Positions 12,718 through 56,636 of a DNA stretch of 64,000 bases are shown here, piece by piece; the stretch's first letter is position 1, and every line of letters starts with the position of its first letter. Under the pieces are notes generated by a model. It made no database searches, was not told the DNA's origin, and was given only the letters and a program-made list of their open reading frames with translations. The stretch comes from Diadema setosum (Eukaryota; Echinodermata; Echinoidea; Diadematoida; Diadematidae), in contig NW_027307649.1 of the NCBI RefSeq assembly GCF_964275005.1, forward strand, positions 883,001-947,000, given 5' to 3'. A program made the position numbers and the translations under genes.

Positions 12718-14612
12718 AAATGACAGTAATCATTTGAAAATAAAAGAAAAATAATCAGTGTATCTCCACATGGCAAAATGCTGGATGATATATTAAACCT
12801 CCCTTCCCATTGCATGGTTAAAATGTTACTTGAACTATAAAATGTGGGAGTAACGGGGGTATCTGGTATTGTAAAGATTTGGGATATCACTCTCGCAGTT
12901 CTTTCCTAGTACATACCATTTAAGTTGTGGAAATACTTGCATCTTTCGAGATGGTAAGCCGAACTTTTGCTTATTTGGATGTGTTTCTGATACTTCATTA
13001 TCTAAACTATTCATTTCACTTCATGTTGTAACATCAGCACATCCCTATTGGACTTTCACCTACAGTTTGTTATTATTCTTACTTTGACTACTAATTAAAC
13101 CAAACTGAATCAGTGAGTAGGAGGATATTTATTGTTTTCCCTTGTTGTGTAGAGTTAAAATGGACACACAAGTATCACTTGAAACATTGTTACAGATGTC
13201 TTGTCACGGTCTATGTGTGCTTATGACTTTGTATGAACGACGAGGATGTGCTTGTGTAATCATGCACAATTAGTGTCTAAAACCCTAACGATATCATTGT
13301 CACAAATTGTGTTTATTTTTAGCATTAGCAGGAATTGTATTTGTAAGGAAGAATTTATGTATTTGGACCTCTTCTGACATTTGTTTAACGTGTCAATTCA
13401 CATGCAGCAGTTTTAAGAGCAGTGCCTCGTGACCAACTAAAAACGGTGTATTGTGAGTAAAAATTATGTCTACGCAAAACAACTCTTGTGAGCAACATAT
13501 CTTGTGAACCCTCCTGTTTTTCACAATAATTGTAGCCTCTTCAGCCACTAAGAATACATACCACCACCTTACCGTAAGAAAAGCTATAAAGAAGTATAAT
13601 CACTGTGAAATATTTCCAGTGTGAATTGTTCACGCTCCCTACCAAGCATGCACGCACCAAGATGTAAATCCACCAAACTGCTGTGATCTATTTATTACGT
13701 GTTTTCTAGAATGATGTTTCCTGAAACATGAATTGCAGTTAGATTGAATGGAAGGCGTGTAATATATATAGGCAGAATAGACTTGCAGGACAAAGGGAAA
13801 ACAAGATGCGATTTGTAGGATTTATATCTAAGAGGCTGTGATAAAAAATGAAAAAAAAAAATGAAAAAAATAGCTGTTCTGTGCCAGAATATAAGACGTT
13901 CGTTAGGTGCTTTGTGTGTTCGGGAGAAATATGCTATGTTCTGAGGGTCCTTACATGACATTAGTCGCAAGCTTTGCAGACTTAAGTTTATCAGAGTATG
14001 CATCGATTAAAGTATTAACTCTGTATCTTTGCTGACTTGTTCGTGGAGATGGCATGTGCAAAGTTTTCTTCTTTACAGGCAATGCCTTTAGTTATAGCCG
14101 TCTAGTCTAGCCACGAATTGCTGAGTGCAATCAGGTCTGTACGCATTTTTGTTTTTAATCATCCTTTTAAGGCGGCACGGCACGGAATGTACAGTAATGT
14201 TGTTGTCTTTCTAGAGAGTCAAGGTAACATTGTACATTTTATTGTAAGCAAAACAAAAGGACAACTTTGTTATTATTGAAGCTGCACTGCTCTTTGTAAC
14301 ACAGAAAATATTTGAAGATTTTGTTTGTTTGTTTGAGCCTCTTATGCCAGGCAAAGTTTTATCAGTATTTAAGTTTGTCGACTGCAGCAGGGAAATTAGA
14401 CTACTGTGCGATCTTGCCAGCTCTCACAATGTACATAATTACAAAATATTGTATTTTTTTTTCCGGTTCTAATCTTTGTAAATACTCGTCTCCCTTATTA
14501 TCGCTTTGACGGTGTGACGCAATTGAGCAGAAGGCAGAATGATGTCGTGTATTTACACCCTCAGTAGTACTAGATCCAAATACGACCACACACTGATAGA
14601 CAAAGAACAAGC

Positions 14613-14776
14613 CAGGGGCGGATCCAGGAATTCTGTAAAGAGGGGGCGCCTTTACAAAATCAAAGGGGGAGGGGGCACACACACCCCTTACCTATTTTTT
14701 TTTTTTTTTTTTTGCTATTAATTTCTCTTGTTTTAACAAAGAAAAAATAAAGTGCGCTCCCTCTGGATCCGCCACT
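14613..14776. mobile_element. Small TIR element, CAGGGGCGGATCCAG ends
   Basis: Ends CAGGGGCGGATCCAGGAATT and CTGGATCCGCCACTG are inverse (CAGTGGCGGATCCAG). CAAGC stands on both sides, a likely target duplication. 164 bp with T run inside. The same insertion is at 30298-30420 in copy 2 and its right half starts copy 3 near 43842, so it predates the duplication; copy 4 ends just before this site. Confidence 0.7.
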
Positions 14777-15559
14777 GCAAGCGATCTGGTTAACGGATAA
14801 CGGCGACTGTTTTTTCTCCAGTTCTTGTTTGTAGTATTTCGTGATAGAGAAGCTTTGCTTCTTCTTTGTTTCTTCCCATCTGTATCAATGGTAATCAAAG
14901 CGCCGACGTAGACTTTATTTCACCCGTAGTTTTATGGAGAGATTTTTCTTTTTCTTTTTTTTTAAAATCAAGGTATGTGATACATGAAGATACGTGTGTG
15001 GACTAGCATGATTTGAATGAGATCACGAAAACAAAATATATGTGCTGGTATATGTCCCTATGCGGATATGCATACGTGGGACTATGTCATTTATTTGAAG
15101 GTAATGCGAATATGCCACAAACGGTTAGCAATAATTTGATTCCGTTTTACGTTATGCTGAACGTAGAAATGGGATTCATTCGCTTTTACACACAAGTAAC
15201 ACAGCCGATGGTGTGTCAGTCTACAAGAACGAAAGAGGTGTGAGAATACTGTAGAGCTTCCAATATGGAATGAAAGAAGAAAGTGAAATTAGACCGAAAT
15301 CAAACCAGTTACTGACATATTATATGTGCGCACTCGTTCAGGTCGTAGAACTAGCCGAAAGCCTCGTAACGTATAGTGCAAGTATGAAAATTCATTGCGG
15401 CCCATATAGGCGTACCACAAGGAACTGTGCATGGTTTACAAGACAGCCAAGCTGAATGAGTTGTAAATGTGAATGTATGACACTCTTCGTAGTTTGGACA
15501 TATTAAGAAGGGGAGATATGAATTATGTTCTGAAGTGGAATTGATTGATATATTACCAG

Positions 15560-15587
15560 CCAACAACAACAACAACAATGACAACAA

Positions 15588-15628
<41 letters not shown>
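15560..15628 (+). repeat. CAA trinucleotide repeat
   Basis: About 22 CAA triplets with small breaks. The same site in copy 3 (about 44870-44886) has only about six, so the array changed in length after duplication. Confidence 0.9.
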
Positions 15629-16370
15629 GAAAGAATATCAACGGTACTAGCACCCTTGCTAATTCGATACGTATTTTGAATACGAAAATATTGTTCCTCC
15701 TCTCAGTCAAGACGACAACTTACAATTTAGGACAAGCAGATATTGATGATATTAAAGTACCATGATTTTTACCGATATTCTTTTTTGTTTCCATTTGTAG
15801 GCGGCATTGGATATCTGTGAAGTTTAATTCACATGTCCTTCACCACTAACGCGTGTTATCTCGTGGCCCTATATGATAATTCTGACAGGTAGATGATGAT
15901 AATCTTCGTACTTCAGCACAAGATATTCACATCACAACACATGTTTAACAAGAAATGGAATGCTTGCATGTTAGTTTGTTTTTCGTAAGATATCAATACA
16001 ATTTTAACGTGAAATTTGGGTGGTTTTTTTTTTTTTTTTTTGCATATGGCAATCAATGAATTCTACAATCGTCCTTAAACTGATAAAGAAAGGATAACCT
16101 CTATAAAGTCAGGCAGAAAATCACCTTCAGTTTTTGTGAATTTACCGAACGATAAAGCGATACTGTCCTCAAGTCACACGAATATATTACTTTGCAAGGT
16201 ATTTGCAAAAAAAAAAGGTGAATTATAAAAAGAGAGGTCGTAGAAACATATATTATGTACAGTATACTGTGCGACAAACACAATAGACTGTATATGTAAA
16301 AAAAAAATGCTGTTATATTTCATATCGTTATTGTATATTGTGTACATACTCTAGCGATTGTTTTAACAAC

Positions 16371-16378
16371 TGAATAAA
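16371..16378 (+). terminator. Candidate poly(A) signal (AATAAA)
   Basis: AACTGAATAAACACC lies in a block kept in copies 1, 2 (about 31071) and 3 (about 45611). It is the best candidate 3' end for a long integrin transcript in copy 1, about 4.4 kb after the stop codon. No transcript data support it here. Confidence 0.35.
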
Positions 16379-16497
16379 CACCTACAAAAAGATTTGCATA
16401 TTATTATTGTAGAATTAGATGTCCTGTGTTTTTCTTCAACGCGATGGGGTTTCTAAAAAAGGGCATGTTGCACCCATATATATATATATATATATAT

Positions 16498-16770
16498 AGT
16501 TAACAACAAAATTATTCATACCCTTGAGAAATTATTAGTTTGGAGCAGATTTCTTACAAGTGAAGGATGGAGTGATGGTGATTGGGTGTTAACTTTTTAC
16601 TCTTATTCGTCCTCCATAAATTGACATTAATTCCAGTTTCTCCTCATTTGCATAATAATAGAAAATCCATGAGATATAACACCCAATCACTGTCACTTCA
16701 TCGTTTACTTGTAAGAAATCTGCTCAAAACTAAAAATTTCCCAGGGGTATGAATAATTTTGTTGTTAACT
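16498..16770. mobile_element. Tc1/mariner-type MITE
   Basis: Ends AGTTAACAACAAAATTATTC and its inverse GAATAATTTTGTTGTTAACT bound 273 bp with decaying inverse arms (TTTCTTACAAGTGAAGGATG against the right-arm partner). Inserted in a TA tract that stands uninterrupted in copies 2 and 3, so it came after the duplication. Non-coding. Confidence 0.8.
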
Positions 16771-16784
16771 GTACAAATATATAC

Positions 16785-17462
16785 AGTGTATATCAGAAAA
16801 AAAGATAATCTAACTTTGGTTACTATTTCATAATTGTCAGCTATGGAGAGCTCAATGATGGCTGTGAGGAAAGTGAACTCTTCTCTTTCAATTGATACTT
16901 AATAATATTGACTAATGTCACTCATGACTGAGTACATGAACTTTAAAGACAACAATGACAAATTGCACTTTTTTCCAAGTTTTATCACCTTGAAGTCCAT
17001 TTTGTGTATATGTGTGTGTGTGTTCACATTAACGGATTTTAACACATAACTCGAGGCGACAAACCATGTCTTGAATATGAAGAGAGAAAAATGGATAATT
17101 GGTTAGCCTTAATGGGAGTGACCAAGTTATCGACAACGTGGCTATGTTGAAGGTTATGGACCATAAAAGGCTAAAAGAAACCCTAAATACAAACCTCCAG
17201 TTGTGCAGGCTGGCCTGCTACTTTGACCATTTTCATTGACAGATCTCACCCACTCAGTGAGACATTCATTGTTCTTTTACGATAACACTCAAACTTGGAA
17301 AAAGCTCATGTGCTCAGTCGTGTATGACATTTGCCGACATAATTAGGTACCACTTGATAGAAGAAGAGTTCTTTTTTCCTCACAACCAACATTGTGCTCT
17401 CCACAGCAGCTGACAGGTTTAAAATAGTAACCTTCCAAATTTGGATTACCTTTTTTGATATG

Positions 17463-17465
<3 letters not shown>
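16785..17465. mobile_element. TA-bordered foldback MITE
   Basis: Left arm from CAGTGTATATCAGAAAAAAA to about 16990 and right arm from about 17290 to TTTTTTGATATGCACTATAT are inverse over about 190 bp (GGTTGTGAGGAAA against TTTCCTCACAACC). TA microsatellites lie on both outer sides. Present in all three full cassettes: copy 2 about 31250-36250 (split by the 4.28 kb element) and copy 3 about 45765-46430. Confidence 0.75.

Positions 17466-17533
<68 letters not shown>
17464..17533. repeat. TA microsatellite
   Basis: About 35 TA units beside the foldback MITE end. Similar tracts: 31177-31217, 32693-32748, 36264-36310, 46432-46520. Confidence 0.95.
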
Positions 17534-17535
<2 letters not shown>

Positions 17536-17599
17536 AATTGAACCATCCTAATCTGTTCAAAAAGTGATTGAAATGAGGGAGAGAGAAAGTTAGGAAGTG

Positions 17600-17799
17600 C
17601 AAGTTCGCAGAAAAGGGAGAAAAGAGCGTTAAACGATTTCGGTCACTCAGGCGTGCTATGTTTTGTTTCCGAGTGAAAACACTGCCTGTCCGAAAGAATA
17701 TGGTCCAGAAAAGTGCTAATATCTCGATTTCGGTTTTGTTTTAAGCCGTCAAATTTTGACACTATAGGCCTAAAGCTACAGAAAGGATTACTCTTCCAG
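17600..17799 (+). other. Candidate non-coding first exon of TLR copy 1
   Basis: A non-repeat block conserved in all cassettes (about 36365-36510 and 46735-46946). It ends in TCTTCCAG|GTAAGACA, a near-perfect splice donor (GT at 17800), kept in copy 3 (GT at 46947) and missing in copy 2. Together with the conserved acceptor at 20910 it could make a 5' UTR intron. This is inference; no transcript is available. Confidence 0.3.
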
Positions 17800-17877
17800 G
17801 TAAGACAAACTTTTTTGGGGGTCTGTCAACATAACTTACTACATTGTGTCTTAGTCTATTTACAAAGAATCCTATAT

Positions 17878-17919
17878 TTGTGTGTGTATGTGTGTGCGTG
17901 TGTGTGTGTGTGTGTGTGG
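17878..17919. repeat. TG microsatellite
   Basis: (TG)n; expanded in copy 3 at about 47028-47087 and nearly replaced by a G run in copy 2 (about 36581-36606). Confidence 0.9.
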
Positions 17920-17941
17920 ATTTGAATTGGGCTGTCATATG

Positions 17942-19808
17942 CAGGGTGGTCCAAAAAGAACGAAACACCTAAGATCTTGAATTTCAGCAATATTGTTGCA
18001 AATATCTCATTATTTTGCATACTATTGGAAAGGCCACTCTTTTTCCATGAGAATAACATCAAGTTCTTTAATTTTGGTTAATGCGATATGATTTTAGGAT
18101 CATTTTTGTCAATCCTTGCAATTTTCAAAATGTGATCATTTTGCACTCTCAGATATACCGAAACCAGCAACAATTCGGCTACCATAGAATACCAGTAGCG
18201 TTCACAATGTGTGGAATGTGGGGCGGACGGTGTGATTGTCATTGTCCGTTATCATTGTAAATGAGACGACCTGCTGGGCTCATTAGGCATTTTCACATCA
18301 GCCCGATGTTTAATTAATTCAATTATAAACCGACACGCAATATTCTCAGTTCTCTTTGTGTCTATCAATGTACACTTAATTAAAAGTACGGGCTTTATTC
18401 CTAAACCACTTATGAACTCACGTCACTGCCAATCATGCCTTTGAAAAAAACTCGCTATTTTCCAGCTAAATTTAACATCTCAGTAGGCGTTTTCAAATCA
18501 GCCGGAGGTTTCCAAATAGCGCGCTATTTTCTGACTTGGGAAATTTTCCCGATAGCGAAATAGCGCGCTATTTGATAATGTGAACACAAATTAGCCCGCT
18601 AATTGTATCGCTCTGATCGAGAACATTTCTCGACTCCAACTCGGGAAATTTCTGAAATAGCGGGATAGTAGCGCGTTATTTGATAATGTGAGAACGACTC
18701 GAGAAATTAGCGCGATGAATCCCATCATGCCTAGCGTGTGTGACCCGATCGATCGAGGCAAACTGCACACAAATCATGAGGAATTTTTGAGAGGGCACAC
18801 ACATGATGCTGTTTGCACATACTTAGCTGTCGAATTAGCTCGAAAAAAATGCGGACTAATTCTCTTCGGGCTGATGTGAATAAGAAATGAAATAGCGCTC
18901 TAATTCGCAATCGCGAAAAATATTTCGAGCTTGGATTTTTATCGGGCTGATGTAAAAACGCCTATTGAGATGCAAAATTTAGCTGGAAAATAGCGAGGTT
19001 TTTTCAAAGGCATGATTGGCAGTGACGTGAGTTCATGAGTGGTTTAGGAATAAAGCCCGTACTTTTAATTAAGTGTACACTGATAAATACAAAGAGAACT
19101 GAGAATATTGCGTGTCGGTTTATGATTAAATCAATTTATGATCTTCATTATGATTGCTTTTCTTTGTAGTTTTCATCCATATGAACACAATTGTAGAGGT
19201 CAGACAGCCCAGATTAGGAATGTTAAAATCGGTCAGTCACATTGTTAAATCGTGTCTTTAAATTATCTTGCGACTGCTCGGAGACACTGTAATTTCACAA
19301 TAGACGTCTCAGAGTCGTGGGCTATAACATAGCGAAGACATCTCAGTCGCAATCGCAATAGAAGAAATCTACAGTCGCGAACTAGTTTCAAGCCCGGTGA
19401 GATTGGGCCGAATGCATAAATCAAGCAATTGCTAGCTAAATTTCTAGCTAAATTTAGCATCTCAATGAGCCCAACAGGTCGTCTCATTCACAATAGTAAC
19501 GGACAATGACAATCACACCGTCCGCCCCACATTCCACACATTGTGAACGCTACTGGTTCTATGGCAGCCGCATTGTCGCTGGTTTCGGTATATCTGAGAG
19601 TGCAAAATGATAACATTTTGAAAATTGCAAGGTTTGACAAAAAATGGTCCTAAAATCATAACGAATTAACCAAAATTAAAGAACTTGGTGTCATTCTATT
19701 GAAAAAAGAATGGCCTTTCCAATAGTATGCAAAATAATGAGATATTTGCAACAATATTGCTGAAATTCTAGATCTTAGTTGTTCCGTTCTTTTTGGGCCA
19801 CCCTGTAT
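17942..19808. mobile_element. Long foldback element, CAGGGTGG ends
   Basis: Ends CAGGGTGGTCCAAAAAGAAC and GTTCTTTTTGGGCCACCCTG are inverse and the arms run inward for several hundred bases. A second inner inverse pair (GTACGGGCTTTATTCCTAAA near 18388 against its inverse near 19047) brackets a centre rich in TAGCGCGCTA palindromes. No transposase frame. Copies 2 (36633 to about 37390) and 3 (47112 to about 48230) keep the left end and part of the inner arm but lack the right end. Confidence 0.7.
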
Positions 19809-19810
19809 TG

Positions 19811-20894
19811 AATGCATACGAATTCTCAGTACATTTATTCATAGGTCATACATTTTTACTTTTGTACTTTTTTGTACTTTGGTACCATCGCTTTTGCTGA
19901 CGTTTTATTTCTTACTGAATGAATTCTCTCAAGTCGTTAGCTAGATTATGAACACTCGTGTATTTCCTTACATATCGGCTATTTTTCATAAAAGTTCATG
20001 AATGCTTAAAATGTTTTCACGTCATGTACTCACTCCTATATATACCATGCGCATTTCTCCACTTCTTGAAAACAACCGCGATTGCATTCCCCCCCCCCCC
20101 CCCGACAACGAGGTTCAACTGTCATGCAGGGGACAGTACATTGCTGTCATAAAATTGTGGTTTTATTAGGGAGCCATCTTACCCACTCCTTTCTTTCACA
20201 AAAACATAATCTCTATAAAGCTGACAGGTCCTTGACAATGTTGAAGGGTGATCACTAAACTCTTTATGCCACTACCGGCTGGCCAGAAAAAAGAAAGAAA
20301 GACAGAAAAGATGGAGGGATGGAAGAAGAGTTATTTCATGCTGAACGTTTGGGACTAAAATGAATTTTATAAAGAACATTTTTTTTTTTTGGTATGAAAA
20401 CACAGCAATCACAGAGGGAACTTTAAGTCTTGTTTCACATGAGATTCCATCAGTGTCCCAAACAGTGAATGTCTTCACCTAAAACGGAGCGTGCAACGAA
20501 TGGAAGGGAAGGACCAAAAAAAGCAGATTGCAATTCCTTATTTACACCTACAGTCAAAATGACAGAATAGTGAAGATATGCTACAAACTTGCTCCTTTCT
20601 TTCAGTTCAGTGTAACGGCCCTTCCTTGTATGCATCCCAGTATACTATACGAATGTGATACACTTTTTCGAAGGCAGCAGCAAATGAGTGACAGTCCTCC
20701 TAGTGCATAGACAGATTCCTGCTTTTACAAAACTACAGACACAATGGAGAGCCGATAATTAGAACATGCACAATTCCCTTTTGTTTTCGGTTTGTTTTCC
20801 TATCTTTCCTTCCTTATTGTAATTTCTTTCATTAGGAAGGAAAGCTCTTAGGAAAGAAATCGCGTAGTGTTTTTTTTTTCTTATAGTTTGATTG
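19811..20894. other. TLR copy 1 upstream flank
   Basis: No coding feature recognised. Contains a C run (20090-20103) and an inverted pair TTCCTTCCT...AGGAAGGAA (about 20807-20842) that is kept in all three cassettes. Confidence 0.5.
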
Positions 20895-20910
20895 CACCTT
20901 CTTCCTGCAG
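20895..20910 (+). promoter_or_regulatory. Candidate splice acceptor before TLR start
   Basis: ACCTTCTTCCTGCAG, a pyrimidine tract plus CAG, is identical upstream of all three TLR copies (ends at 20910, 37944 and 49054), about 200 bases before each start codon. It would fit the end of a 5' UTR intron. Inference from conservation only. Confidence 0.4.
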
Positions 20911-21053
20911 CTCTTGATATTATAAGTAGATAGAGTTCACTAAACTTTGTATGAATGTTTGCACTGCAAACGAACGAGAGTGAAACAAACGAACACGGGA
21001 TAGCGCTTGCACTTGCTCATGAAGTGACCCAGATTCCTGGAAAAGATTAAAAA

Positions 21054-21295
21054 ATGATTGCATGCAGCACTGGAAATTCAGAGTGAACTATTTCGCCGCA
21101 AACCACGATGGCTGGAAGTGTTGTTTTTACAATTTTATCTACAGTGATGACTTTGTCATGTATTGCTGGCCACTGGGTACAATCTCCTCCCACATGCTCC
21201 ATCTCTTATCCGGGCCCCTTTCCGCGAGTAGACTGCTCTCACCTCAATCTCTCAGCTGTTCCTCAGAATCTTCCAGACGACGTCTACAATCTTGA
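21054..21295 (+). promoter_or_regulatory. Upstream start codons overlapping the TLR start
   Basis: Two ATGs lie 54 and 46 bases before the TLR ATG. The first gives a 10-codon frame ending at 21086. The second (21062) gives a 77-codon frame that overlaps the TLR start in another frame, with a poor context (TGCATGC). Copy 2 keeps the same 77-codon length (38092-38325). The TLR ATG itself has A at -3 and G at +4, so leaky scanning could reach it. Confidence 0.4.
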
Positions 21296-23855
21296 CTTAT
21301 CATACAACAACATTTTGACCATCACCAACATGTCGTTTGCTGCATATGGAAAGCTCCAAGTCCTGATTTTGCGATGGAACGCGCTGACTCAGATCGAGGG
21401 AAATTCGTTCGAGCATCTCCTAGACTTGAGAGTGGTTTATATGAACTTCAACAACATCAGCCGACTTCCAGATGCCCTCTTTCATAACAATCTTCATCTG
21501 TCACTCCTTGAGCTATCTCATAATAGACTGACCGACATCCCAAATAACGCTCTTGGGTCCATTAGAGCCTTGAAGTTTATTTTCCTCGGCCACAACCTGA
21601 TCACAAACATCAGTTTCGCTCAATTCTCATCCTGCCAACACCTATTTAAGATTGATCTCACAAACAACAAGATCACGCATCTTCATCAGGAGAGTTTTGC
21701 TGCTATTTGGAACTGTACAATAGACCATCTCGACCTGGCCTTCAACAAAGTATCGGAACTTCCCCATAAACTCTTTTCGAATTTCCGTAACCTGACGGGT
21801 CTCTATTTGAACCACTTTAACCTTCTTACATTCGACGTGAGAGCCTTCATGGGAAATTATAAAATCAGTTATGTAATGATCAACAGCGCAAAAATTCACA
21901 CTATTATACCTCTCACCTGTCAAGGTCTAGACTTTCCCAATTTGAGATCAATTAATCTTGGGCTGAATAAACTCTCTCAAATACAGAGCTACGCATTTAG
22001 GGGGTTTAGAAACCTGCATTCTTTGAATCTCGAGGACAACAAGATAGCCTTGATCACTAATAGCTCATTCTGTGGATTGAATTCACTCATCTACTTGACT
22101 CTCAGAGGAAACAAACTTTCACACTTGCCTCTTCGTGCGTTCGCCTGTACAAAAAAGCTACAATTTCTCAGGCTGGACAGCAATGACATAAGAGTGTTGG
22201 ATCCTCTTGTACTTCATGGCGTTCGCTATCTTAAATATATTGATCTTTTCGGCAATAAAATAGAGAAGCTTGCAGGACCATGGCATCTGCCTTCTTTGCG
22301 GAAACTGAAACTGCAAAAAAACGAAATATATTCTTTGAATAAAAACACATTTGAAGGAATGTCCCATGTGCAAGAGGTCAACCTAACCGCTAATAATATC
22401 AGAAACATTTCCAAAGATACATTTATCGGGCTCACTTCCCTGAAATATATTGATCTGTCTTTTCAACCGTTTATCGAACTTGATGGTACTTTTGAAAAGT
22501 TGGAGAACCTCGAGAACCTAACGTTCATGAAAACAATTATTAAGTTTTCGTCACTAAATCAATTTACATATGCAAGCTCTATGAGAACACTCGTCATGTC
22601 ACTCGCAAAGTTGAGTGTCAAAGACCTGGTAAGTAATCATGAACATTTATCCGTTTTCTTCGGGTTAGACTCACTAACATCCCTCGATCTATGGGGAAAT
22701 AAGTTGGTAAACTTGCACGAGTACCCTTGGGTTTTTAAACCTTTACGTCAGCTGCAAATGATTGACCTAAGCGATAATCGAATCACCGTTTTGAAAGCAG
22801 GGATGTTCTCTCACCTATCGTCTCTAACACACCTATTTCTGTATTCAAACGAAATCCAGAAAATCGACCCACATGCTTTTGAAGGATTGGGATTCTTACG
22901 GCAATTGCTGCTGCAGGCTAATGTGATATCTCTGTTTGAGAAAAATCTACTCATCTACACGCCGAATCTCACAAGGTTGTACCTTCATAATAATCATCTC
23001 ACTACAATTTCTGCAAACACATACTTTCCAGAGACTCTTGTGCGCCTTGATATCTCCCACAATCCTTTCACTTGTGACTGCAGCTTGACATGGTTCCAAA
23101 ACTGGCTCCATACCACCAACGTCAATGCCACCCCCTTTAATGAAACCCTGTGCTCACAGTCGTCCTTCAAAGAACTTGTGAACCTGCCACTTGAAGCATT
23201 CCATCCAGGTGACTTTTGTGGAATCAATGCACCACTCATCTCTGGACTTATCTCCGGCAGTGTCATAGTAACATTACTGGGACTTTTGATTTACAGGAAA
23301 CGCTGGTGGTTGAACTACAAAATATTCCTGCTGAAGCTTTTTGTCTTGGGGTATAAGCAACAAGAAGAAGACGTACAGGCAAATGACTATGAGTATCAGC
23401 TCAACATCATGTGCCATGATTACGATGATGACTGGGTTCACCGTGTCCTGAGACCTGCACTGGAAGAGAGAATGCCCCATCTCCAACGGGTTGCCTATGG
23501 CGACGAAGCTCTCAGAGTTTCAATGTACTACATTGATGCTGTTCACCACATCATCGAGACCAGCTACAAGACTGTTCTCTTGATTAGCAACCACTGTGTT
23601 GATGATGCCTGGTTCATCACCAAGGTCAGAGTGGCTCTGGAGCATGTAAATGAAACAGGACTTGACAAGGTGATCCTGGTATTTTTGGAAGACATACCAG
23701 ATGAGCGGCTGCCCTACCTGGTAAGACTCTTTCTGAGCAGAAACAGGCCTAACCTGGTTTGGACGGAAGACCACGATGGCCAGGACTTGTTCTGGGCCTA
23801 CTTTGAGAAGAGCATGCAGACAAATCCACATATCAATCATGTTTTTCCTATCTAA
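21108..23855 (+). CDS. TLR: Toll-like receptor, copy 1 (intact, 915 aa)
   Basis: Type I membrane pattern-recognition receptor with an uninterrupted coding region, as in most sea urchin TLRs. Signal peptide 1-23 (MAGSVVFTILSTVMTLSCIA), N-terminal LRR cap with C30 and C43, about 23 leucine-rich repeats (xLxLxxNxI pattern; weak around 480-510), C-terminal LRR cap 652-704 (NPFTCDC, C656/C658, C704), transmembrane helix 708-729, basic stop RKRWW, then a cytoplasmic TIR domain about 761-905. TIR box 1 is YEYQLNIM, box 3 keeps FW (895-896). Box 2, normally RDxxPG, reads YGDEAL (797-802), so the adaptor-contact BB loop is atypical. The start is chosen because it gives the signal peptide and an A-3/G+4 context. 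It differs from copy 2 at about 50 residues, mostly in the ectodomain. Ligand unknown. Confidence 0.97.
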   Translation: MAGSVVFTILSTVMTLSCIAGHWVQSPPTCSISYPGPFPRVDCSHLNLSAVPQNLPDDVYNLDLSYNNILTITNMSFAAYGKLQVLILRWNALTQIEGNSFEHLLDLRVVYMNFNNISRLPDALFHNNLHLSLLELSHNRLTDIPNNALGSIRALKFIFLGHNLITNISFAQFSSCQHLFKIDLTNNKITHLHQESFAAIWNCTIDHLDLAFNKVSELPHKLFSNFRNLTGLYLNHFNLLTFDVRAFMGNYKISYVMINSAKIHTIIPLTCQGLDFPNLRSINLGLNKLSQIQSYAFRGFRNLHSLNLEDNKIALITNSSFCGLNSLIYLTLRGNKLSHLPLRAFACTKKLQFLRLDSNDIRVLDPLVLHGVRYLKYIDLFGNKIEKLAGPWHLPSLRKLKLQKNEIYSLNKNTFEGMSHVQEVNLTANNIRNISKDTFIGLTSLKYIDLSFQPFIELDGTFEKLENLENLTFMKTIIKFSSLNQFTYASSMRTLVMSLAKLSVKDLVSNHEHLSVFFGLDSLTSLDLWGNKLVNLHEYPWVFKPLRQLQMIDLSDNRITVLKAGMFSHLSSLTHLFLYSNEIQKIDPHAFEGLGFLRQLLLQANVISLFEKNLLIYTPNLTRLYLHNNHLTTISANTYFPETLVRLDISHNPFTCDCSLTWFQNWLHTTNVNATPFNETLCSQSSFKELVNLPLEAFHPGDFCGINAPLISGLISGSVIVTLLGLLIYRKRWWLNYKIFLLKLFVLGYKQQEEDVQANDYEYQLNIMCHDYDDDWVHRVLRPALEERMPHLQRVAYGDEALRVSMYYIDAVHHIIETSYKTVLLISNHCVDDAWFITKVRVALEHVNETGLDKVILVFLEDIPDERLPYLVRLFLSRNRPNLVWTEDHDGQDLFWAYFEKSMQTNPHINHVFPI

Positions 23856-43183: not shown

Positions 43184-43391
43184 GGTTTTTCTTTCTCGCT
43201 GCAAAGATTATATTGCATTATTAATATTATGTATACATGTTCTGTCTATCTGACCAACATGCAAAACGAAAAAGAAAATGCAAGTATATTCATAAGTGTT
43301 GTATGAGTACTTTCACAGGTGAATTAATGGTGCATATGTAGGTCTACAAGTTTTGTGTATTTCACTTGGCTTTTTCTAAGAATCTTTATCA

Positions 43392-43720: not shown

Positions 43721-43761
<41 letters not shown>

Positions 43762-43806
43762 GGAAACCTGAAGCCCCATCTCAACCAAAACTATACCATC
43801 CATTTA
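43392..43806. mobile_element. AAAGGGATGGTA-ended palindromic MITE (complete)
   Basis: Starts AAAGGGATGGTAAGATTTTG and ends AAAACTATACCATCCATTTAA; arms pair over about 150 bp (ACACTGGATTCTAAGAGGAA... against CTCTTAGAATGTGTATG). A CA array (43723-43760) lies in the right arm. Shared with copy 3 at 53976-54382. Confidence 0.75.
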
Positions 43807-43839
43807 AGTAATGATGTCTACAATGAACATGACTGTACA

Positions 43840-46481: not shown

Positions 46482-46516
<35 letters not shown>

Positions 46517-46579
46517 TTGAATTGTTGAGTTTTTATATATATATGTATACATACATGTATATAATACTATATATATATA

Positions 46580-46634
46580 TGTGATAAAAACCGAAAAAGG
46601 CATTAGTCTAATGCCATTTTAGGTTTTTATCACA
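46580..46634. repeat. Near-perfect 55-bp hairpin
   Basis: TGTGATAAAAACCGAAAAAG and CATTTTAGGTTTTTATCACA close on GGCATTAG.CTAATGCC with one or two mismatches, in a TA-rich setting private to copy 3. Confidence 0.8.
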
Positions 46635-47035
46635 TATATATATAAATTGTTGAAATGAACCATTCTAGCCTGTTCAAAAAGTGATTGAAATGAGAGAGAG
46701 AGAGAGAGAGAGAGAGTTACGAAGTGCAGTTTCACAGAAAAGGGACAAAAGAGCGCTTGACGATTTCGGTCACTCAGGCGTGCTATGCAGGATTATTCAT
46801 CAAAACATGTTTTGTTTCCGAGTAAAAATACTGCCTGTCCGAAAGAATATGGTCCAGAAAAGTGCTAATATCCCGACTTCCGTTTTGTTTTAAGCCGTTA
46901 AATTTTGACACTGGGCCTATAGCTACAGAAAAGATTACTCTCCCAGGTAAGACAAACTTTTTTTTTTCTGGTTTATCAACATAACTTACTACATTGTGTC
47001 TTAGTCTATTACAAAGAATCCTATTTGTGTGTGTG

Positions 47036-47088
<53 letters not shown>

Positions 47089-48239
47089 ATTTGAATTGGG
47101 CGGCCATATACAGGGTGGCCCAAAGCGAACACCTAAGATCTTGAATTTAAGCAATATTGTTGCAAGTATGTCATTATTTTGTGTATTATTAAAAAGGCCA
47201 TTCTTTTTCCAATAGAATGACACCAAGTTCTTTAATTTTGGTTAATGCGTTATGATTTTAGGACCATTTTTGTCAACCCTTGCAATTATCCAAATGTGAT
47301 CATTTTGCACTCTCGGATATACCGAAATCAGCGACAATTTGGCTGCTATGGAACTAGTAGCGTTCACAATGTGTGGAATGTGGGGCGGACGGTGTGATTG
47401 ACATTGTCCGGTATCATTGTGAATGAGGCGACCTGCTTGGCTCATTAGGCGTTTTCACATCAGCCCGATAAAAATCCAAGCTCGAAATATTTTTCGCGAT
47501 TGCGAATTAGAGCGCTATTTTATTTCTTATTCACATCAGCCCGAAGAGGGGGGTAGCCCGAATAGTCAATTTTTTTAAAATAGCTAATTCGACAGCTGAG
47601 CATATGCAAACAGCATCAGTAATGTGTGTGCCCTCTCAAAAATTCCTCATGATTTGTGTGCAGTTTGAGAAATTTTCTCGATCGGAGCGATACAATTAGC
47701 GTGTTAATTTGTGGTCACATTATCAAATAGCGCTATCGGGAAAATTTCCCAAGTCAGAAAATAGCGCGCTATTTGAAAACATCGGGCTGATGTGAAAACG
47801 CCTACTGAGATGCTAAATTTAGCTGGAAAATAGCGAGGTTTTTTCAAAGGCATGATTGGCAGTGACGTCAGTTCATAAGTGGTTTAGGAATAAAGCCCGT
47901 AGTTTTAATTAAGTGTACATTGATAGATACAAAGAGAACTGAGAATATTGCGTGTCGGTTTATAATTAAATTAATTTATGATCTTCATTATGCTTGCTGT
48001 TCTTTGTAGTTTTTCATCCATCTGAACACATCTTATAGAGGTCGGACAGCCCAGATTGGGAATTTTTAAAGTCGGTCAGCCACATTGTTAAATTGTGTCT
48101 TTAGATTTTTTGCGACTGCTCGGAGACACTGTAATTTCACAATAGACGTCTCAGAGTCGTGGGCTAGCGAAGACATCTCTGCAACTAGCAAAATCTACAG
48201 TCGGCAACTAGTTTCAAGCCCGGTCAGATAATGAGTACC

Positions 48240-49043
48240 CGTTAATTCGTTCAAAAATGGAAACAGTAATATTCTCAGTTCCCATTGGCCTGCTGCCCCC
48301 CCCCCCCCCAAAAAAAAAAAAAAGAAAGAAAAGAAGAGGGGATGTGGAAGAAGACTTATATCGTGGTGAATGTTTGGCTTCAGTGACTAAAATTAATTTT
48401 TATAAAGAACATTTTTTTTAATGAAAACATAAGTGCATATCACAGAAGGAACTTTAAGTCTTGTTTCTCATGAGATTCCATCAATGTCCAAACAGTGAAT
48501 GTCTTGACTTAAAACGGAGCGTGCAATCAATGGAAGGAGAGTATGGTGAATTTCTCATTTAATGGACAAATTAAGCGCACAGCGCATTATTTTCTTGATC
48601 CATCTTTCCTGAATAATGTACCATTGATGAGAAACGTGTTTTTCTCTCCCCCCCCCCCTTTGGATCAAGGCCAAAAAAGCAGATAGCAATTCCTTATTTA
48701 CAGCTACAGGCAAAATGACAGAATAGTGAAGGCATGCTACAGACTTGCTTCTTTCTTTCAATTCAGTGTAACGGCCCTTCCTTACATGTATCAATTAATT
48801 CATATTATACGAACGTGATTACACTTTTTCGAAGGCAGCAGCGAATGAGTGACAGTCCTAGCACAAAGAGATTCCTGATTTTAGACACAGTGGAAAGCCG
48901 ATAATTACTACATGCACAATTCCCTCTTGCTTTTGTTTGTTTTTCCATTCTTTCTTTCCTTATTGTAATTTCTTCCTTCAGGAAGGAAAGCTCTTAGAAA
49001 AGAAATCGATAGTGGGTTTTTTTTTTTCAATTTGATTGCACCT
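48240..49043. other. TLR copy 3 upstream flank
   Basis: Homologous to 20280-20900 and 37400-37930. Contains a C/A homopolymer junction (48297-48322) and a second C run near 48650. No gene recognised. Confidence 0.5.
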
Positions 49044-49258
49044 TCTTCCTGCAGCTCTTGATGTTATCACTAGATAGAGTTCACTAAACTTTTCATGAAT
49101 GTTTGCACTGCAAAAGAACGAGAGTGAAACAAATGAACACGGGATAGCGCTTGCACTTGCTCATGAAGTGATCCAGATTCCTGGAAAAGATTAAAAAATG
49201 ATTGCATGCTAGCTGCATCACTGGGAATTCAGAGTGAACTATTTCGCCGCAAACAACG

Positions 49259-52011
49259 ATGGCTGGAAACGTTGTTTTTACAGTTTTAACTACAGTGATG
49301 ATTTTGTCATGTATTGCTGGCCACTGGGTACAATCTCCTCCCACATGCTGCCTCTCTTATCCGGGCCCCTTTCTGCGAGCAGACTGCTCTCACCTCAATC
49401 TCTCAGCTGTTCCTCAGAATCTTCCAGACGACGTCTACAATCTTGACTTATCATACAACAATATTTTGACCATCACCAACATGTCGTTTGCTGCATATGG
49501 AAAGCTCCAAGTCCTGATTTTGCGATGGAACGCGCTGACTCAGATCGAGGGAAATTCGTTCGAGCATCTCCTAGACTTGAGAGTGGTAAATATGAGCTTC
49601 AACAACATCAGCCGACTTCCAGATGCCCTCTTTCATAACAATCTTAATCTGTCAATCCTTGGGCTATCTCATAATAGACTGACCGATATCCCAAATAACG
49701 CTCTTGGGTCCATTAGAGCCTTGAAGTTTATTTTCCTCGACCACAACCTGATCACAAACATCAGTTTCGCTCAATTCTCATCCTGCCAACACCTATCTAG
49801 GATTGATCTCAGAAAAAACGTGATCACGCATCTTCATCAGGAGAGTTTTGCTGCTATTTGGAACTGTACATTTGACAGTCTCGACCTGGCCTACAACAAC
49901 GTCTCCGAACTTCCCCATGAACTCTTTTCGAATTTCCGTAATCTGACGGGTCTCTATTTGAACCACTTTAACCTTTTTACATTCGACGTGAGAGCCTACA
50001 TGGGAAATTATAACATCAGTTATGTGATGATCAACAGCGCAAAAATTCACACTATTATACCTCTCACCTGCCAACGTCTAGACTTTCCGAATTTGACATC
50101 AATTAGTCTTGGGCGGAATAAACTCTCTCAAATACAGAGCAACGCATTTAGGGGGTTTAGAAACCTGCGTTATTTGAACCTCGATGACAACAAGATAACT
50201 TTGATCACTAATAGCTCATTCTGTGGATTGAATTCACTCATCTACTTGAATCTGAAAAGAAACAAACTTTCACACTTGCCTCTTTGTGCGTTCGCGTGTA
50301 CAGAAAAGCTACAATTTCTCAAGTTGGACAGCGATGACATAAGAGTGTTAGATCCTGATGTACTGCATCGTGTTCCCTTTCTTGAATATCTGGATCTTTT
50401 TCGCAATAAAATAGAGAAGCTTATAGGACCATGGGATCTGCCTTCGTTACGGGAACTGAAACTGCAAAAAAAAAAAAAAAATATATATATATTCTTTGAA
50501 TAAAAACACATTTGCAGGAATGTCCCATGTGCAAGAAGTCAACCTAACCATTAATAATATCAGAAACATTTCCACAGATACATTTATCGGACTCACTTCC
50601 CTGAAATCTATTGATCTGTCTTTTCAATCGTCTTTTATCGAACTTGATGGTACTTTTAAAAAGTTGGAAAACCTCGAGAACCTAACGTTCGTGAAAACAA
50701 TTATTAAGTTTTAATCAATTTACATATGCAAGCTCTATGAGGACACTCGTCATGTCACTCGCAAAGTTGAGTGTCACAGACCTGGTAGGTAATCATGAAC
50801 CTCTATCCGTTTTCTTCGGGTTGGACTCACTAACATCTCTCGATCTATGGGGAAATAAGTTGGTAAACTTGCACGAGTACCCTTGGGTTTTTAAACCTTT
50901 ACGTCACCTGCAAATAATTAACCTAAGCAGCAATCAAATCACCGTTTTGAATGCAGGGATGTTCTCTTACCTATCGTCTCTAACACACCTATTGCTGTAT
51001 TCAAACGATATCAAGAAAATCGACCCAAATGCTTTTGAAGGACTGGGATTCTTACGGCAATTGCTTCTGCAGGCTAATGTGATATCTCTGTTTGAGAAAA
51101 ATCTTCTCATCTACACACCGAATCTCACAAGGTTGTACCTTCATAATAATCATCTCACTACAATTTCTGCAAACACATACTTTCCAGCGACTCTTGTGCG
51201 CCTTGATATCTCCTACAATCCTTTCACTTGTGACTGCAGCTTGGCATGGTTCCAAAACTGGCTCCATACCACCAACGTCAATGCCACCCCCTTTAATGAA
51301 ACCCTGTGCTCACAGTCTTCCTTCAAAGAAATTGTGAACCTGCCACTTGAAGCATTCTATCCAGGTGACTTTTGTGGAATCAATGCACCACTCATCTCTG
51401 GACTTATCTCCGGCAGCGTCATAGTAACGTTACCGGGACTTTTGATTCACAGGAAACGCTGGTGGTTGAACTACAAAATCTTCCTGCTGAAGCTTTTTGT
51501 CTTCGGGTATAAGCAACAAGAAGAAGACGTACACGCAAATGACTATGAGTATGAGCTCAACATCATGTGCCAAGATGGTGATGATGACTGGGTTCACGGT
51601 GTCTTCAGACCTGCACTGGAAGAGAGAATGCCCCATCTCCAACGGGTTGCCTATGGCGACGAAGCTCTCAGAGTTTCAATGTACTACATTGATGCTGTTC
51701 ATCACATCATCGAGACCAGCTACAAAACTGTTCTCTTGATCAGCAACCACTGTGTTGATGATGCCTGGTTCATCACCAAGGTCAGAGTGGCTCTGGAGCA
51801 TGTGAATGAAACAGGACTTGACAAGGTGATCCTGGTATTTTTGGAAGACATACCAGATGAGCGGCTGCCATACCTGGTAAGACTCTTTCTGAGCAGAAAC
51901 AGGCCTAACTTGGTTTGGACTAAGGACCACGATGGCCAGGACTTGTTCTGGGCTTACTTTGAGAAGAGCATGCAGACAAATCCACAGATCAATCATGTTT
52001 TTCCGATCTAA
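49259..52011 (+). pseudogene. TLR: Toll-like receptor, copy 3 (two frameshifts)
   Basis: Open from the usual start through residue about 409, then an A7CGA3 site has grown to A16 plus extra TA units (50466-50491, net +10 bases) and the frame is lost. A second lesion at about 50710 removes eight bases (AAGTTTTAATC against AAGTTTTCGTCACTAAATC) and gives a stop at 50712-50714; the third frame is then open to the normal end (50737-52011). The transmembrane segment has VTLPGLLIH where the others have VTLLGLLIY. LRRs at 330-410 differ more (LCAFACTEKL, DSDDIRVLDPDVLHRV), while the 3' half is nearly that of copy 2. Box 2 is the same atypical form. It could be a recent pseudogene or an allele-specific lesion; an assembly error in the A16 run would remove only the first break. 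Confidence 0.9.
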
Positions 52012-52468
52012 ATGGAATCAAGATATGAAAATGACTGATATCTTGCTTCCTAACATTTACAGTACAAAGTAATCGATTTGAACACAAAGTCTTTGCATAT
52101 CATGCTCCTGTAACATGTTCTGTAACATTTCTGTCACACGGAAGAAGGTCGAAGATTGACATCATTATTTCCCTTTAATCTATGTTCAATTGTCAAGGCA
52201 CGATTAAGTCAATTTTGACGAAACCTACAAAACACAGCTGAAAATATACTTTTAATTGTTTACTTAAAGCGTGGGACTTTCCTAGGGGGCTGCAGCCTGG
52301 CCCGCGGCCACGCACTTGTAGTTTCTTACACAAACAACAAAAATATGAAAAAATAAACAAAATGAAGAAAACTCATGCCTTCCAGATGGTTCTAGATTCT
52401 TCCGGTGAAGGGGGGGGGGGGGGGGACTGACCCTTACCCTTTGACCAAACAAAGAGCACTAGGACCTT

Positions 52469-52501
<33 letters not shown>

Positions 52502-52898
52502 TACAGTACATATTTCGATTTTTATTCATTCACTCCACTTGTAATTATATAAATTATAAGATTTAGCTTTCATCATATCACTTAAATAGATTTACTATGA
52601 TGTGGATGGATGTTCTTGTATGTGTGCAAGAAATCCTTTGTATGTGTAACCTGACTGTGTAAAGTTGCTTAGGCATTTGATGTTAGCGTCTTTGACTTCC
52701 TTACTTTCATGTAAAATGTGTATTGTTTGAATATACATACAGTAGTCACTTTTATGAATGTTGAATAGGGATTATTTTTCTATTACTTACATTTCCTTTA
52801 ATTTTCCTTATTTGTAATTTTGTTTCAGTCAACAATGTTGCTTCCATTAACTTTACTTTCATTGCTTTGATTTTTGTCTATTCCCTCACTGTGTTTTT
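52012..52898 (+). other. TLR copy 3 3' flank
   Basis: AATAAA at 52352-52357, a 16-base G run (52408-52424) and a 30-base A run (52471-52500). Homologous to the flank of copy 2. Confidence 0.6.
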
Positions 52899-53140
52899 AA
52901 TTTTTTTTGTGTGTGTTTTTTATGACATCATTCGTGCATATACTTTATATTGTATTTGAAAAAAAAAATGCGTTTATCAGACGAATGAAAGACAAATTGA
53001 AAGCTTCTACTGCTTTGGATCATGTTTCCTTTTTTCCTTTTTCTTTTTTTTATGATGGAAATAAATAAACTATTGAATTGAATTGAATTGAATTGAACTG
53101 AATTGAATTGAATTGAATTGAACTGAACTGAATTGAATTG
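52899..53140 (+). mobile_element. LINE/SINE 3' end with ATTGA tail
   Basis: An insertion absent from copy 2, where the site reads GTGTTTTTGAATAGTAATTT. It ends in ATAAATAAACTATTGAATTG and a (GAATT)n array with GAACT variants. Such microsatellite tails are usual for CR1/L2-type retroposons and their SINEs. Only the 3' end is present. Confidence 0.6.
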
Positions 53141-53975
53141 AATAGTAATTTTCTCAAGTTGTACGTAACAATTTTCGTATATCATACTGATATCTCCTCT
53201 TACCACCTGAATAAGATGGGAGTACTCTATGACCTTTACGTAGAATAGCATGCTTAGGTGTGAAGATACGCAACAATAGGACCTGTACAAATTACATTTG
53301 CAGGTATGTAACCAATGAGCAGCACTTATTTGTTTCTATTCAATACAGTATGTAAAAGATAAGCTGTGTTTTAAAAATGTTCAAGAAAGATTGAAAACTT
53401 CTTTTAGATAGATTATACTACCTTGTGGTCACATACCGGAATTACTACATTTATACCGCTGTATTAGTCCACACTTTTTTTTTTTTTTGTTAGATTAGAA
53501 GACCCTCCCGATAGGTGGTGCTGTAGGTACACAGCAACGGTAATATATGTACCGTGTACATATGTGTGTAAGCGTTCTCTAGGAGATTCTCGGAGACTTG
53601 TACAGAACCGAATGATTCCCCTACGCAATGGATTGAAATTCATTTTTCAAAATTAACGTTAATTGAAATCTCACACAGCGATAATAAAACAAAAGCTAAA
53701 TCACCAGTCCTGCAAGGTATTAATTGGTATGTTTGATTGGTCAGTAAAGGAGAGAGAAATAGGTGGTTTTTCTTTCTCGCTGCAAAGATTATATTGCATT
53801 ATTAATGTTATGTGTACATGTTCTGTCTATCTGACCAACATGTACTAAATAAAACGAAAAAGAAAATGCAAGTATACTCATAAATGTCTAATGAGTAGTT
53901 TCACAGGTGAATTAATAGTGCATATGTAGGTCTACAAGTTTTGTGCATTTCACTTGGCTTTTTCTAAGAATCTGT

Positions 53976-54302
53976 ATCAAAGGAATGGTAAAGTTTTGAC
54001 TGAGATTGGGGGATTGAGATTCAACTTAATGTGAGATAACCACTCATGAAATATGAAAAAAAAATATACACTGGATTCTAAGAGGAATTCTGAGTTTATT
54101 TGATGAAATTCGATTTCGAAATGGCTGAGATATCTACAAACAAAGTAAAACAAAGTGGTCCTTATAAAAGGTGGGTCCCGCCTTTTATCAGGACCTCTTT
54201 GTTTTCGGATAACTCAAACCATTTCAAAACCAATTTTCATCAAATAAACTTTGAATTCCTCTTAGAATGTGTATGCTCTTTCATATTTCATAAGAGGTTT
54301 AT

Positions 54303-54333
<31 letters not shown>

Positions 54334-54382
54334 ACATACACAAATGGAAACCTGAAGCCCCATCTCAACCAAAACTATACCA
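53976..54382. mobile_element. AAAGGGATGGTA-ended palindromic MITE, copy 3
   Basis: Homologous insertion to 43392-43806, with a CA/TA array (54303-54342) in the same place. Confidence 0.75.
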
Positions 54383-54422
54383 TCCATTTAAGTAATGATG
54401 TCTACAATGAACATGACTGTAC

Positions 54423-54470
54423 AGTGTCGGGCGGTCCCCCCGACACTAGCCATCCCCTTTAATTTTTATG
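54423..54470. repeat. Small GC-rich hairpin at cassette break
   Basis: GTGTCGGG and CCCGACAC form a stem around CGGTCCC. It stands where copy 2 jumps to the middle of copy 3: both sites share ACTGTACAGTG and differ after it. Confidence 0.5.
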
Positions 54471-54758
54471 TTTAATTGGTCAATTATGAGAGAAATATGT
54501 GGTGATTTTTTCCTCTACCTGCAAAGATTATTTTGCATTATTAATATTATGTGTAAATGTTCTATCTGGCCTACATGCTCTAAAGAATAAGAAAATGGAA
54601 GAATACTCATTAGTGTCTTATGAGTAATTTCACATGTGAATTCATACCAATGCTTGCTCTATAAGAGTAAATCATACCTGATGCTACATTCAACAACAAA
54701 AAAAAATACAAGTCATCCTTTATGTCACATTTCTTGTTCTTTTAGATTCGTGATTCAA

Positions 54759-56636
54759 TAATGACAGTAATCATTTGAAAATAAAAGAAAAATAATCAGT
54801 GTATCTCCACATGGCAAAATGCTTGATGATATATTCATCCTCAATTCCCATTGCATGGTTAAAGTGTTACTTGAATTATTAAATGTGGAAATAACGGGGG
54901 TATCTGGCATTGCAAAGATTTGGGATATCACTCTCACACTTCTTTCCTAGTACATACCATTTAAATAGTGGAAATACTTGCATCTTCCGAGATGGTAAGC
55001 CGAACTTTTGCTTGATGTGTTTCTGATACTTCATTATATAAACTATGTCATTTTCACTTCATTTTGTAACATCAACACATCCTTATCTGACTTTCACCTT
55101 AAGTTTGTTATCATTGTTGCTTTGACTACTAATTAAACCAAACTGAATCAGTGAGTAGGATTTTTATTGTTTTCCCTTGTTGTGTGGAGTTAAAATGGAC
55201 ACACAAGTATCACTTGAAACTTGTTACAAATGTCTTGTCATGGTCTATGTGTGCTTATGACTGTATGAACGACAAGGATGTGCTTGTGTAATGAAGCGCA
55301 ATAAGTGTCTAAAACCCTCACGATATCATTGTCACGAATTGTGTTTGTTTTCAGCATAAGCAGGGATTGTATTTGTAAGGAAGTATTTATGTAATTGGAC
55401 CTCTTCTGACATTTTTTTAGCACGTCAAATTCACCGCAGCTTAGAGCAGTGCCTCGTGTCCAACTAAAAACGGTGTATTGTGAGTGAAAATGATGTCTAC
55501 GCAAACCAGCTCTTCTGAGCAACATGCATATCTTGTGAACCCAACTGTTTTTCACAATAATTGTAGCCTCTTCGGCCACTAAGAATACTTGCCACCACCT
55601 TACTGTAAAATCTATAAAGAAGTATAATCACTGTGAAATATTTCCAGTGGGAATTTGTTCATGCTCCCTACCAAGCATGCACGCACCAAGATGTAATCCA
55701 CCAAAATGCTGTATAGAGGATCTATTTATTACGTGTTTTCTAGAATGATGTTTCGTGAAACATGAAGTGCAGTTAGATTGAATGGTAGGAGTGTAATAGG
55801 CAGAATTGACTTGTAGGACAAAGGCAAAACAAGATGCGATTTGTAGAATCGAAAGTTATATCTAAGAGGCTGCGATAAAAAAAAAAAAAAGCTTCTCGGT
55901 GCCAGAATATAAGACGTTCGTTAGGTGCTTTGTGTTTTCGGGAGAAAATATGTTGTATTCTGAGGGTCCTTACATGAAATTAGTCGCAAGCTTTGCAGAC
56001 ATAAGTTTACCAGAGTATGCATCGATTAAAGTATTAACTCTGTATCTTTGCTGACGTGTTCGTGGAGATGGCATGTGCAAAGTTTTCTACTTTGCAGGCA
56101 ATGCCTTTGGGTATAGCCGTCTAGTCTAGCCACGAGTTGCTGAGTGCAATCAGGTCTGTGCGCATTTTTGTTTTTAATCATTCTTTTAAGGCGGCACAAC
56201 ACGGAATGTACAGTAATATCGTTGTCTTTCTAGAGAGTCAAGGTAACATTGTACATTTTATTGTACGCAAAACTAAAGGCCAACTTTGTTATTATTGAAG
56301 CTGCACTGCTCTTTGTAATACAGAAAATATTTGAAGATTTTGTTTGTTTGTTTGTTTGAGCCTCTTATGCCAGGCAAAGGTTTATCAGTATTTAAGTTTG
56401 TCGACTGCAGCAGGGAAGTTAAACTATTGAGCGATCTTGCCAGCTCTCACAATGTACATAATTACAAAATATTGTATTCTATTTTTCGGTTCTTTGTAAA
56501 TATTTGTAAATATTCGCCTCCCTAATCGTCGCTTTGACGGTGTGACGTAATTAAGCAGTGGGCAGAATGATGTCGTGTATTAGTGTACACCTTCAGTAGT
56601 ACTAGATCCAAATACGACCACACACTGACAGCCAAA
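54759..56636 (+). repeat. TLR cassette, copy 4 (truncated left block only)
   Basis: Matches 12718-14605 of copy 1 without its MITE, then stops at GACAGCCAAAGA and passes into the 53-bp satellite. No TLR follows. Frame shifts against the other copies argue that this block does not code for protein. Confidence 0.87.

Follow-up and report, generated by a model that had tools for sequence, protein, structure and literature searches.

A head-to-tail array of four TLR gene cassettes beside an integrin alpha gene in the sea urchin Diadema setosum, with a mosaic third copy

Sea urchin Toll-like receptor (TLR) genes cluster in tandem, and echinoid TLR families are known by their number, the duplication of a unit being seldom legible. 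A locus of Diadema setosum in which a TLR gene is repeated beside an integrin alpha gene raises the question of how such an array grew. It was analyzed in a window of 64,000 nucleotides (the whole stretch of DNA studied; NCBI RefSeq assembly GCF_964275005.1, contig NW_027307649.1, positions 883,001 to 947,000 of the forward strand). Coordinates are those of the window, numbers above 64000 being the same numbering extended into 40 kb of added right flank. Four cassettes of one TLR gene, A to D, were found, and the third, C, was probably made chiefly by unequal crossing-over, with deletion, loss of a reading frame and insertions thereafter. The array is an echinoid-type TLR expansion, an ordinary case of immune gene family growth that is unusually legible: unit edges, a joint with microhomology, a hybrid copy of more recent date, one gene that is broken and intruding elements can all be read within about 83 kb.

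A self-comparison of the window, to which the right flank was then added, revealed, as the original prediction had proposed, four collinear cassettes arranged head-to-tail on the same strand (chains A/B, A/C, B/C and A/D), starting near 12719, 26851, 43841 and 54759. Single matches between cassettes extend over 3.6-4.0 kb at 92-95% identity, far above chance, and the copies have a common joint, as in a tandem segmental duplication. The whole array extends from 12719 to 95214 (~83 kb), and A, B, C and D occupy 14.1, 17.0, 10.9 and 1.9 kb of the window, respectively:

12719..26850, + strand: cassette A, complete unit, 14.1 kb
26851..43840, + strand: cassette B, unit without its last ~0.33 kb
43841..54758, + strand: cassette C, unit without its first ~2 kb; D-like and B-like parts in mosaic
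54759..56638, + strand: cassette D, left part; the right part lies past the window, at 83145-95214, and holds TLR-D

The fourth copy had been described as cut short, which was incorrect. The match of D to A ends at 56638 (A 14606) and picks up at 83144-83145 (A 14600), and the resumed cassette reaches 95214 (A 26849), the unit end; D is interrupted at 56639 by an insertion of 26,506 bp, and the resumption of the match in the right flank rules out a truncated cassette. That the duplications were mediated by the leftmost 1.9 kb of the unit, acting as a flanking repeat, was also considered and rejected: D continues past this segment, and no further copy of it follows the unit end at which the array stops. 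The copy at 43841 is a collinear cassette, as predicted, but one that starts inside the unit: its first ~2 kb are gone because a deletion of ~2.4 kb crosses the B/C joint, taking also ~0.33 kb of the B end, and the C side of the joint falls within a small inverted-repeat element, of which A has the complete sequence (14612-14778). A private deletion of ~0.5 kb was detected in C near 53552-53569, and many private indels separate A, B and D. As separate observations, a near-palindrome, AGTGTCGGGCGGTCCCCCCGACACT, is present in C at 54423-54447, at the point where the B/C deletion truncates the corresponding B sequence, and two related segments of ~290 bp (76%), probably copies of one older repeat, lie at the unit 3' end (25951-26236 and 26568-26847). 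A six-frame Pfam scan of 14800-19800 gave no match.

Three cassettes had been said to carry a TLR at the same relative place. Collinear frames were indeed found in A, B and C, but the array holds four TLR copies, three of them intact:

21108..23855, + strand: TLR-A, intact, single exon, 915 aa
38138..40885, + strand: TLR-B, intact, single exon, 915 aa
49259..52011, + strand: TLR-C, broken frame
89358-92108, past the window: TLR-D, intact frame

The TLR-C frame is split by +10 and -8 bp indels that none of the other three copies has; TLR-C and TLR-D have a +3 change in common.

The unit end runs directly into the unit start at A/B and at C/D, and this is the same founding joint. Five bp, AATGA, are common to the joint and to the left (AAAAATGACAG) and right (CAGTAATGATG) edges of the array, suggesting that the first duplication was microhomology-based. 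The relative ages of the cassettes were estimated from Jukes-Cantor (JC) distances over well-aligned noncoding columns only, since the MAFFT noncoding alignment pairs unrelated insertions, which inflates raw divergences there; some further distances come from BLAST pieces. The 5' noncoding JC distances were 0.077 (AB), 0.074 (AC), 0.073 (AD), 0.078 (BC), 0.077 (BD) and 0.027 (CD), and the 3' noncoding distances 0.077 (AB), 0.076 (AC), 0.068 (AD), 0.058 (BC), 0.076 (BD) and 0.072 (CD). The range of 0.068-0.077 among A, B and D, set against 0.027 for CD in the 5' noncoding part, indicates that A, B and D are of about equal age and that much of C is younger, as judged from these distances.

The topology switches within cassette C. 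At 335 informative sites, where B differs from D and C equals one of them, C was D-like at 212/255 sites to the left of A-position 23261-23345 and at 24/80 sites to the right. The gain from this switch was reached by none of 200 shuffles, and the control switches were weak, their gain being reached by 13 (A), 25 (B) and 92 (D) of 200 shuffles. The switch falls at codons 718-746, the transmembrane (TM)/juxtamembrane stretch. Upstream of it, C lies 0.024-0.027 from D; downstream, B and C are 0.023 apart at the 3' end of the gene (filtered columns) and 0.036-0.037 apart across the final 0.85 kb of the cassette (BLAST pieces), and an insertion of ~0.43 kb located 3' of the gene is common to B and C and missing from A and D. 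By these comparisons C is a mosaic, D-like upstream of the TM/juxtamembrane codons and largely B-like downstream.

The array and its joints, the insertions with their target duplications, the broken TLR-C frame and the topology switch are directly observed; the following history, in which we infer both the order of the events and crossing-over over conversion, probably accounts for them. A segment of ~14 kb, comprising the TLR and its flanks downstream of the integrin alpha gene, would have been duplicated first, via the AATGA microhomology joint, and misaligned recombination between copies would then have enlarged the array. Cassette C would most likely have arisen by unequal crossing-over between the neighbours that are now B and D. 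The exchange would have fallen within the TLR, at the TM/juxtamembrane codons, so joining a D-type ectodomain to a B-type TIR end; C is flanked by its presumed parents, the position expected after a duplicating unequal crossover. Later, the ~2.4 kb across the B/C joint would have been deleted and the TLR-C frame lost, and mobile elements would have lengthened B, through a 4.27-kb fold-back-like element together with smaller insertions, and divided D in two, through the 26.5-kb fold-back-like insertion.

Several observations weigh against this history. The 1.5 kb past the TLR-C stop are far from all the other cassettes (BC 0.086-0.095, CD 0.073-0.077, AC 0.097-0.109), and opposite-type sites occur on both sides of the switch (43/255 on the left and 24/80 on the right). 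The BLAST pieces of A, B and D spread more widely (0.055-0.13) than the filtered columns, and the synonymous distance (Ks) between A and B is 0.046 in the ectodomain, lower than the 0.077 of their 5' noncoding sequence, which suggests further exchange. In addition, C, which is on a 1.2-Mb contig, could be a haplotype misjoin. Since the 1.5-kb tract is too diverged, one recent crossover alone is insufficient for C, and a single clean crossover as its entire history was set aside.

The mosaic structure of C could also have come from gene conversion among cassettes already present, with no crossover that added a copy, a fairly unlikely alternative. The substitution distances require more than one switch downstream, and the closeness of the A and B ectodomains likewise resembles a conversion tract. 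However, the D-like part covers ~8.5 kb (A numbering) and runs out to the surviving cassette edge, usual conversion tracts being shorter than this, and the B-like features (the 0.43-kb insertion and the last 0.85 kb) extend towards the other edge, which favors unequal crossing-over.

Cassette C might instead be an artefact of the assembly, in which haplotype 1 of D was joined to haplotype 2 of B at the conserved TM/TIR region, the true array having three cassettes; this we regard as unlikely. The short distances of C to D upstream (0.024-0.027) and to B in parts downstream (0.023-0.037) agree with it, distances of this size being within sea urchin allelic divergence, as does the position of the switch in a conserved coding stretch. 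Nevertheless, C has private features, namely the +10/-8 bp frame breaks, the ~0.5-kb deletion and the 2.4-kb edge deletion, and B and D differ by ~3% around the switch, so that an assembler using accurate reads should not jump there. A search of the genome (912,680,840 bases, 102 contigs) with TLR-B as query yielded 50 matches, namely the 50 scored of 288 candidates, and among these no second-haplotype copy was found on another contig; outside the array the best full-length match was 71% identical, and shorter C-terminal matches reached 80-81%.

TLR-A and TLR-B have both main domains of a TLR. A leucine-rich-repeat (LRR) ectodomain was recognized in the two (LRR_8, E 8.7e-85 and 1.1e-81, respectively), and the TIR domain scored barely above its cut-off (PF01582, 23.2 bits in TLR-A and 23.0 in TLR-B; cut-off 21.3). 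A hydrophobic stretch from residue 710, read by eye, may be the TM helix. The solved structures nearest to TLR-A are TLR3 chains. The genome gave 34 TIR matches, all above the cut-off, out of 93 scored candidates. A protein tree was built from 20 proteins of the same genome, comprising eight of these 34 matches, truncated at one of their ends, together with 12 from among the 50 TLR-B matches, with TLR-C left out; in it TLR-A, -B and -D formed a clade (100/100 support) inside a 12-member group. For the six gene pairs of the array, Ks across the entire coding region was 0.059-0.095, and the ratio of nonsynonymous to synonymous distance (Ka/Ks) was 0.47-0.70 in the ectodomain vs 0.10-0.27 in the TM+TIR part. 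The ectodomains thus seem to evolve faster than the TM+TIR parts, a contrast that is descriptive only, because branches are common to several pairs and one of the genes has lost its frame. The intact copies would be putative receptors with ectodomains freer to vary and constrained TIR ends. As a side observation, the box-2 position of TLR-A and TLR-B reads GDEALR in place of the usual TIR motif, RDxxPG, and all members of the TLR group (12/12) have GDEA.R or GDEG.R at that place, which may affect the adaptor that they use.

The insertion that splits cassette D begins in the window and ends in the right flank:

56639..64000, unstranded: left part of the insertion; full span 56639-83144, 26,506 bp

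It is bounded by a 6-bp target duplication, CAAAGA, and the same site is uninterrupted in A and B. Its outer inverted ends are identical (122/122), a 53-bp minisatellite occurs in 28.8 copies at 56712-58236 and, inverted, in 28.0 copies at 81595-83073, and arrays of a ~15-bp repeat lie further inward. One 360-bp piece also recurs, at 98.9% identity, within an insertion of cassette B. In six-frame Pfam scans of 58400-63398 and 64001-81502, with 18 translated frames, the sole family match was a reverse-transcriptase fragment (RVT_1) at ~71038-71445, scoring 29.8 bits vs a cut-off of 29.6; no transposase domain was found in this scanned interior. The outer 72 bases had no match among the other loci compared. 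Around the reverse-transcriptase fragment, a pair of 1.3-kb inverted repeats (83.5%) is nested within the insertion at 68567-74031. Long inverted ends with internal tandem repeats, together with a target duplication that can be set against an empty site, make the insertion a candidate fold-back-like element by its anatomy, and transposon-like. That the 26.5-kb stretch is instead a local rearrangement with inverted minisatellites looks quite improbable: the scanned interior without a transposase domain, and the single copy examined, would fit such an origin, but the identical outer ends, and a perfect 6-bp duplication where A and B have the site intact, argue for a fold-back-like element. Its size and these ends make it a practical starting point for work on a large fold-back element.

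Smaller insertions were found in the other cassettes:

14612..14778, unstranded: miniature inverted-repeat transposable element (MITE)-like small inverted-repeat element, ends GGGGCGGATCCAGG / CTGGATCCGCCACTG; also in B and D, with a remnant in C
27298..28627, unstranded: B insertion, 1.33 kb, ends CCAGTGGCG / CGCCACTGG, TTAA-type site; not in A or D
29643-29901: B insertion, 0.26 kb
31906..36178, unstranded: B insertion, 4.27 kb, fold-back-like; not in A, C or D
B 41369..41798 and C 52518-52901 + 53138-53187, unstranded: insertion common to B and C, ~0.43 kb; not in A or D
42901..43183, unstranded: B insertion, 283 bp, a relative of the 4.27-kb element via shared ends

The presence of the MITE-like element in A, B and D, with its remnant in C, indicates that it is older than the duplications. 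The 4.27-kb, 283-bp, 1.33-kb and 0.26-kb insertions lengthen B by ~6.1 kb in all, a gain reduced in part because B is missing some stretches present in A. The 4.27-kb element has inverted tandem arrays (TTCGTTATTCCGAAGG...) at both ends and a target duplication of ~9 bp, CTCCATAGC, and a six-frame scan of it gave no Pfam match. It was also noted that 31906-36178 and 42901-43183 are large and miniature forms of one fold-back-like family (TTCGTTATTCCGAAGG ends) within the same cassette.

We tentatively suggest a wider reading, in which the gene was duplicated by a crossover within the TM/juxtamembrane codons that fused a D-type ectodomain to a B-type signalling end, while fold-back elements, giant and small, insert into the array again and again and may help to break and rearrange it. 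If so, the giant family, with its 26.5-kb length, ends built of a 53-bp minisatellite and 6-bp target duplication, is possibly undescribed. TU, a fold-back transposon of sea urchins, is similar by description to the D insertion. Polinton/Maverick elements are likewise large and make a 6-bp target duplication, as in the D insertion, but they were rejected on coding content, the scanned interior showing no polymerase, integrase, ATPase or capsid match. Among fold-back elements, Drosophila FB and Tetris, as well as Tm1, are described with long composite inverted ends containing tandem repeats, a variable middle and a target duplication (PMC4079207, PMC3169594). The D insertion shares the composite inverted ends with tandem repeats and the target duplication, and differs in its 26.5 kb, its 53-bp unit and its 6-bp target duplication, vs 8-10 bp as given for Tetris and Tm1 (PMC4079207, PMC3169594).

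Compared with other immune gene families, the array resembles the sea urchin TLR families in combining an LRR ectodomain, a putative TM stretch and a TIR domain in many copies, the TLR genes of Strongylocentrotus purpuratus being put at 222 in one account (PMC6043800) and at 253 in another (PMC8634487); here, in contrast, the unit, its joints, the switch point and the intruding elements are legible base by base. The Sp185/333 (SpTransformer) genes are reported as immune genes in tandem segmental duplications with hybrid genes, for which unequal crossing-over was proposed (PMC5103432, PMC8634487), with units of ~2.7-4.5 kb and GA or GAT repeats proposed as edges (PMC8634487), and one account describes the family as free of pseudogenes (PMC5103432). 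The present array is likewise a tandem segmental duplication of immune genes, but has units of ~14 kb, short microhomology edges and one broken copy. No published account of the locus was noticed in a literature search of limited reach on echinoderm TLR families, and its absence from print is not claimed.

The original prediction of a tandem TLR-cassette amplification beside an integrin alpha gene holds, and the integrin exons are located upstream of the array on the same strand as the cassettes:

1..204, + strand: integrin alpha exon, region of Ig-like domain 3 (Pfam Integrin_A_Ig_3, E 0.0053, 16.7 bits, below the cut-off of 23.6)
11711..11953, + strand: open stretch that includes the final integrin alpha exon (cytoplasmic tail, GFFRR motif), then a stop

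We take GFFRR to be a GFFKR-type integrin alpha motif; the tail matched the Pfam Integrin_alpha cytoplasmic region below the cut-off (E 0.069, eight residues). An Integrin_A_Ig_2 exon was detected above the cut-off (E 5.7e-8) on the same strand, 5.8-6.0 kb to the left of the window, so that Ig-like domains and a GFFKR-type tail occur in order on one strand, with the Ig_3 and tail matches below their cut-offs. The earlier exons of the gene extend to the left of the window, which holds its 3' end. Pfam gave no integrin match on three whole frames of 1-10000 (E 0.01), and two whole-frame queries and one exon had no match among solved structures.

The array starts ~760 bases past the integrin tail. 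At a BLAST threshold of E 1e-5, positions 1-12718 plus 10 kb to their left had no match elsewhere in the window, the array included, and the 8.8 kb to the right of the array had none in the window. That the entire array consists of duplicated or collapsed haplotypes misplaced in tandem is highly improbable in view of these flanks, the pairwise distances of 0.068-0.077 among A, B and D and their many private indels. Haplotypes in tandem had been named in the original prediction as what would refute it; such an origin is disfavoured for A, B and D, which are unlikely to be stray haplotypes because of their noncoding distances, private indels, unrepeated flanks and the same joint at A/B and C/D, and for C it keeps the probability given above. 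The sole recurrence of the left flank in the next 40 kb, at the same BLAST threshold, was a 261-bp dispersed repeat (93%), present at 4418-4678 in the integrin region and at 67603-67861 in the interior of the 26.5-kb insertion.

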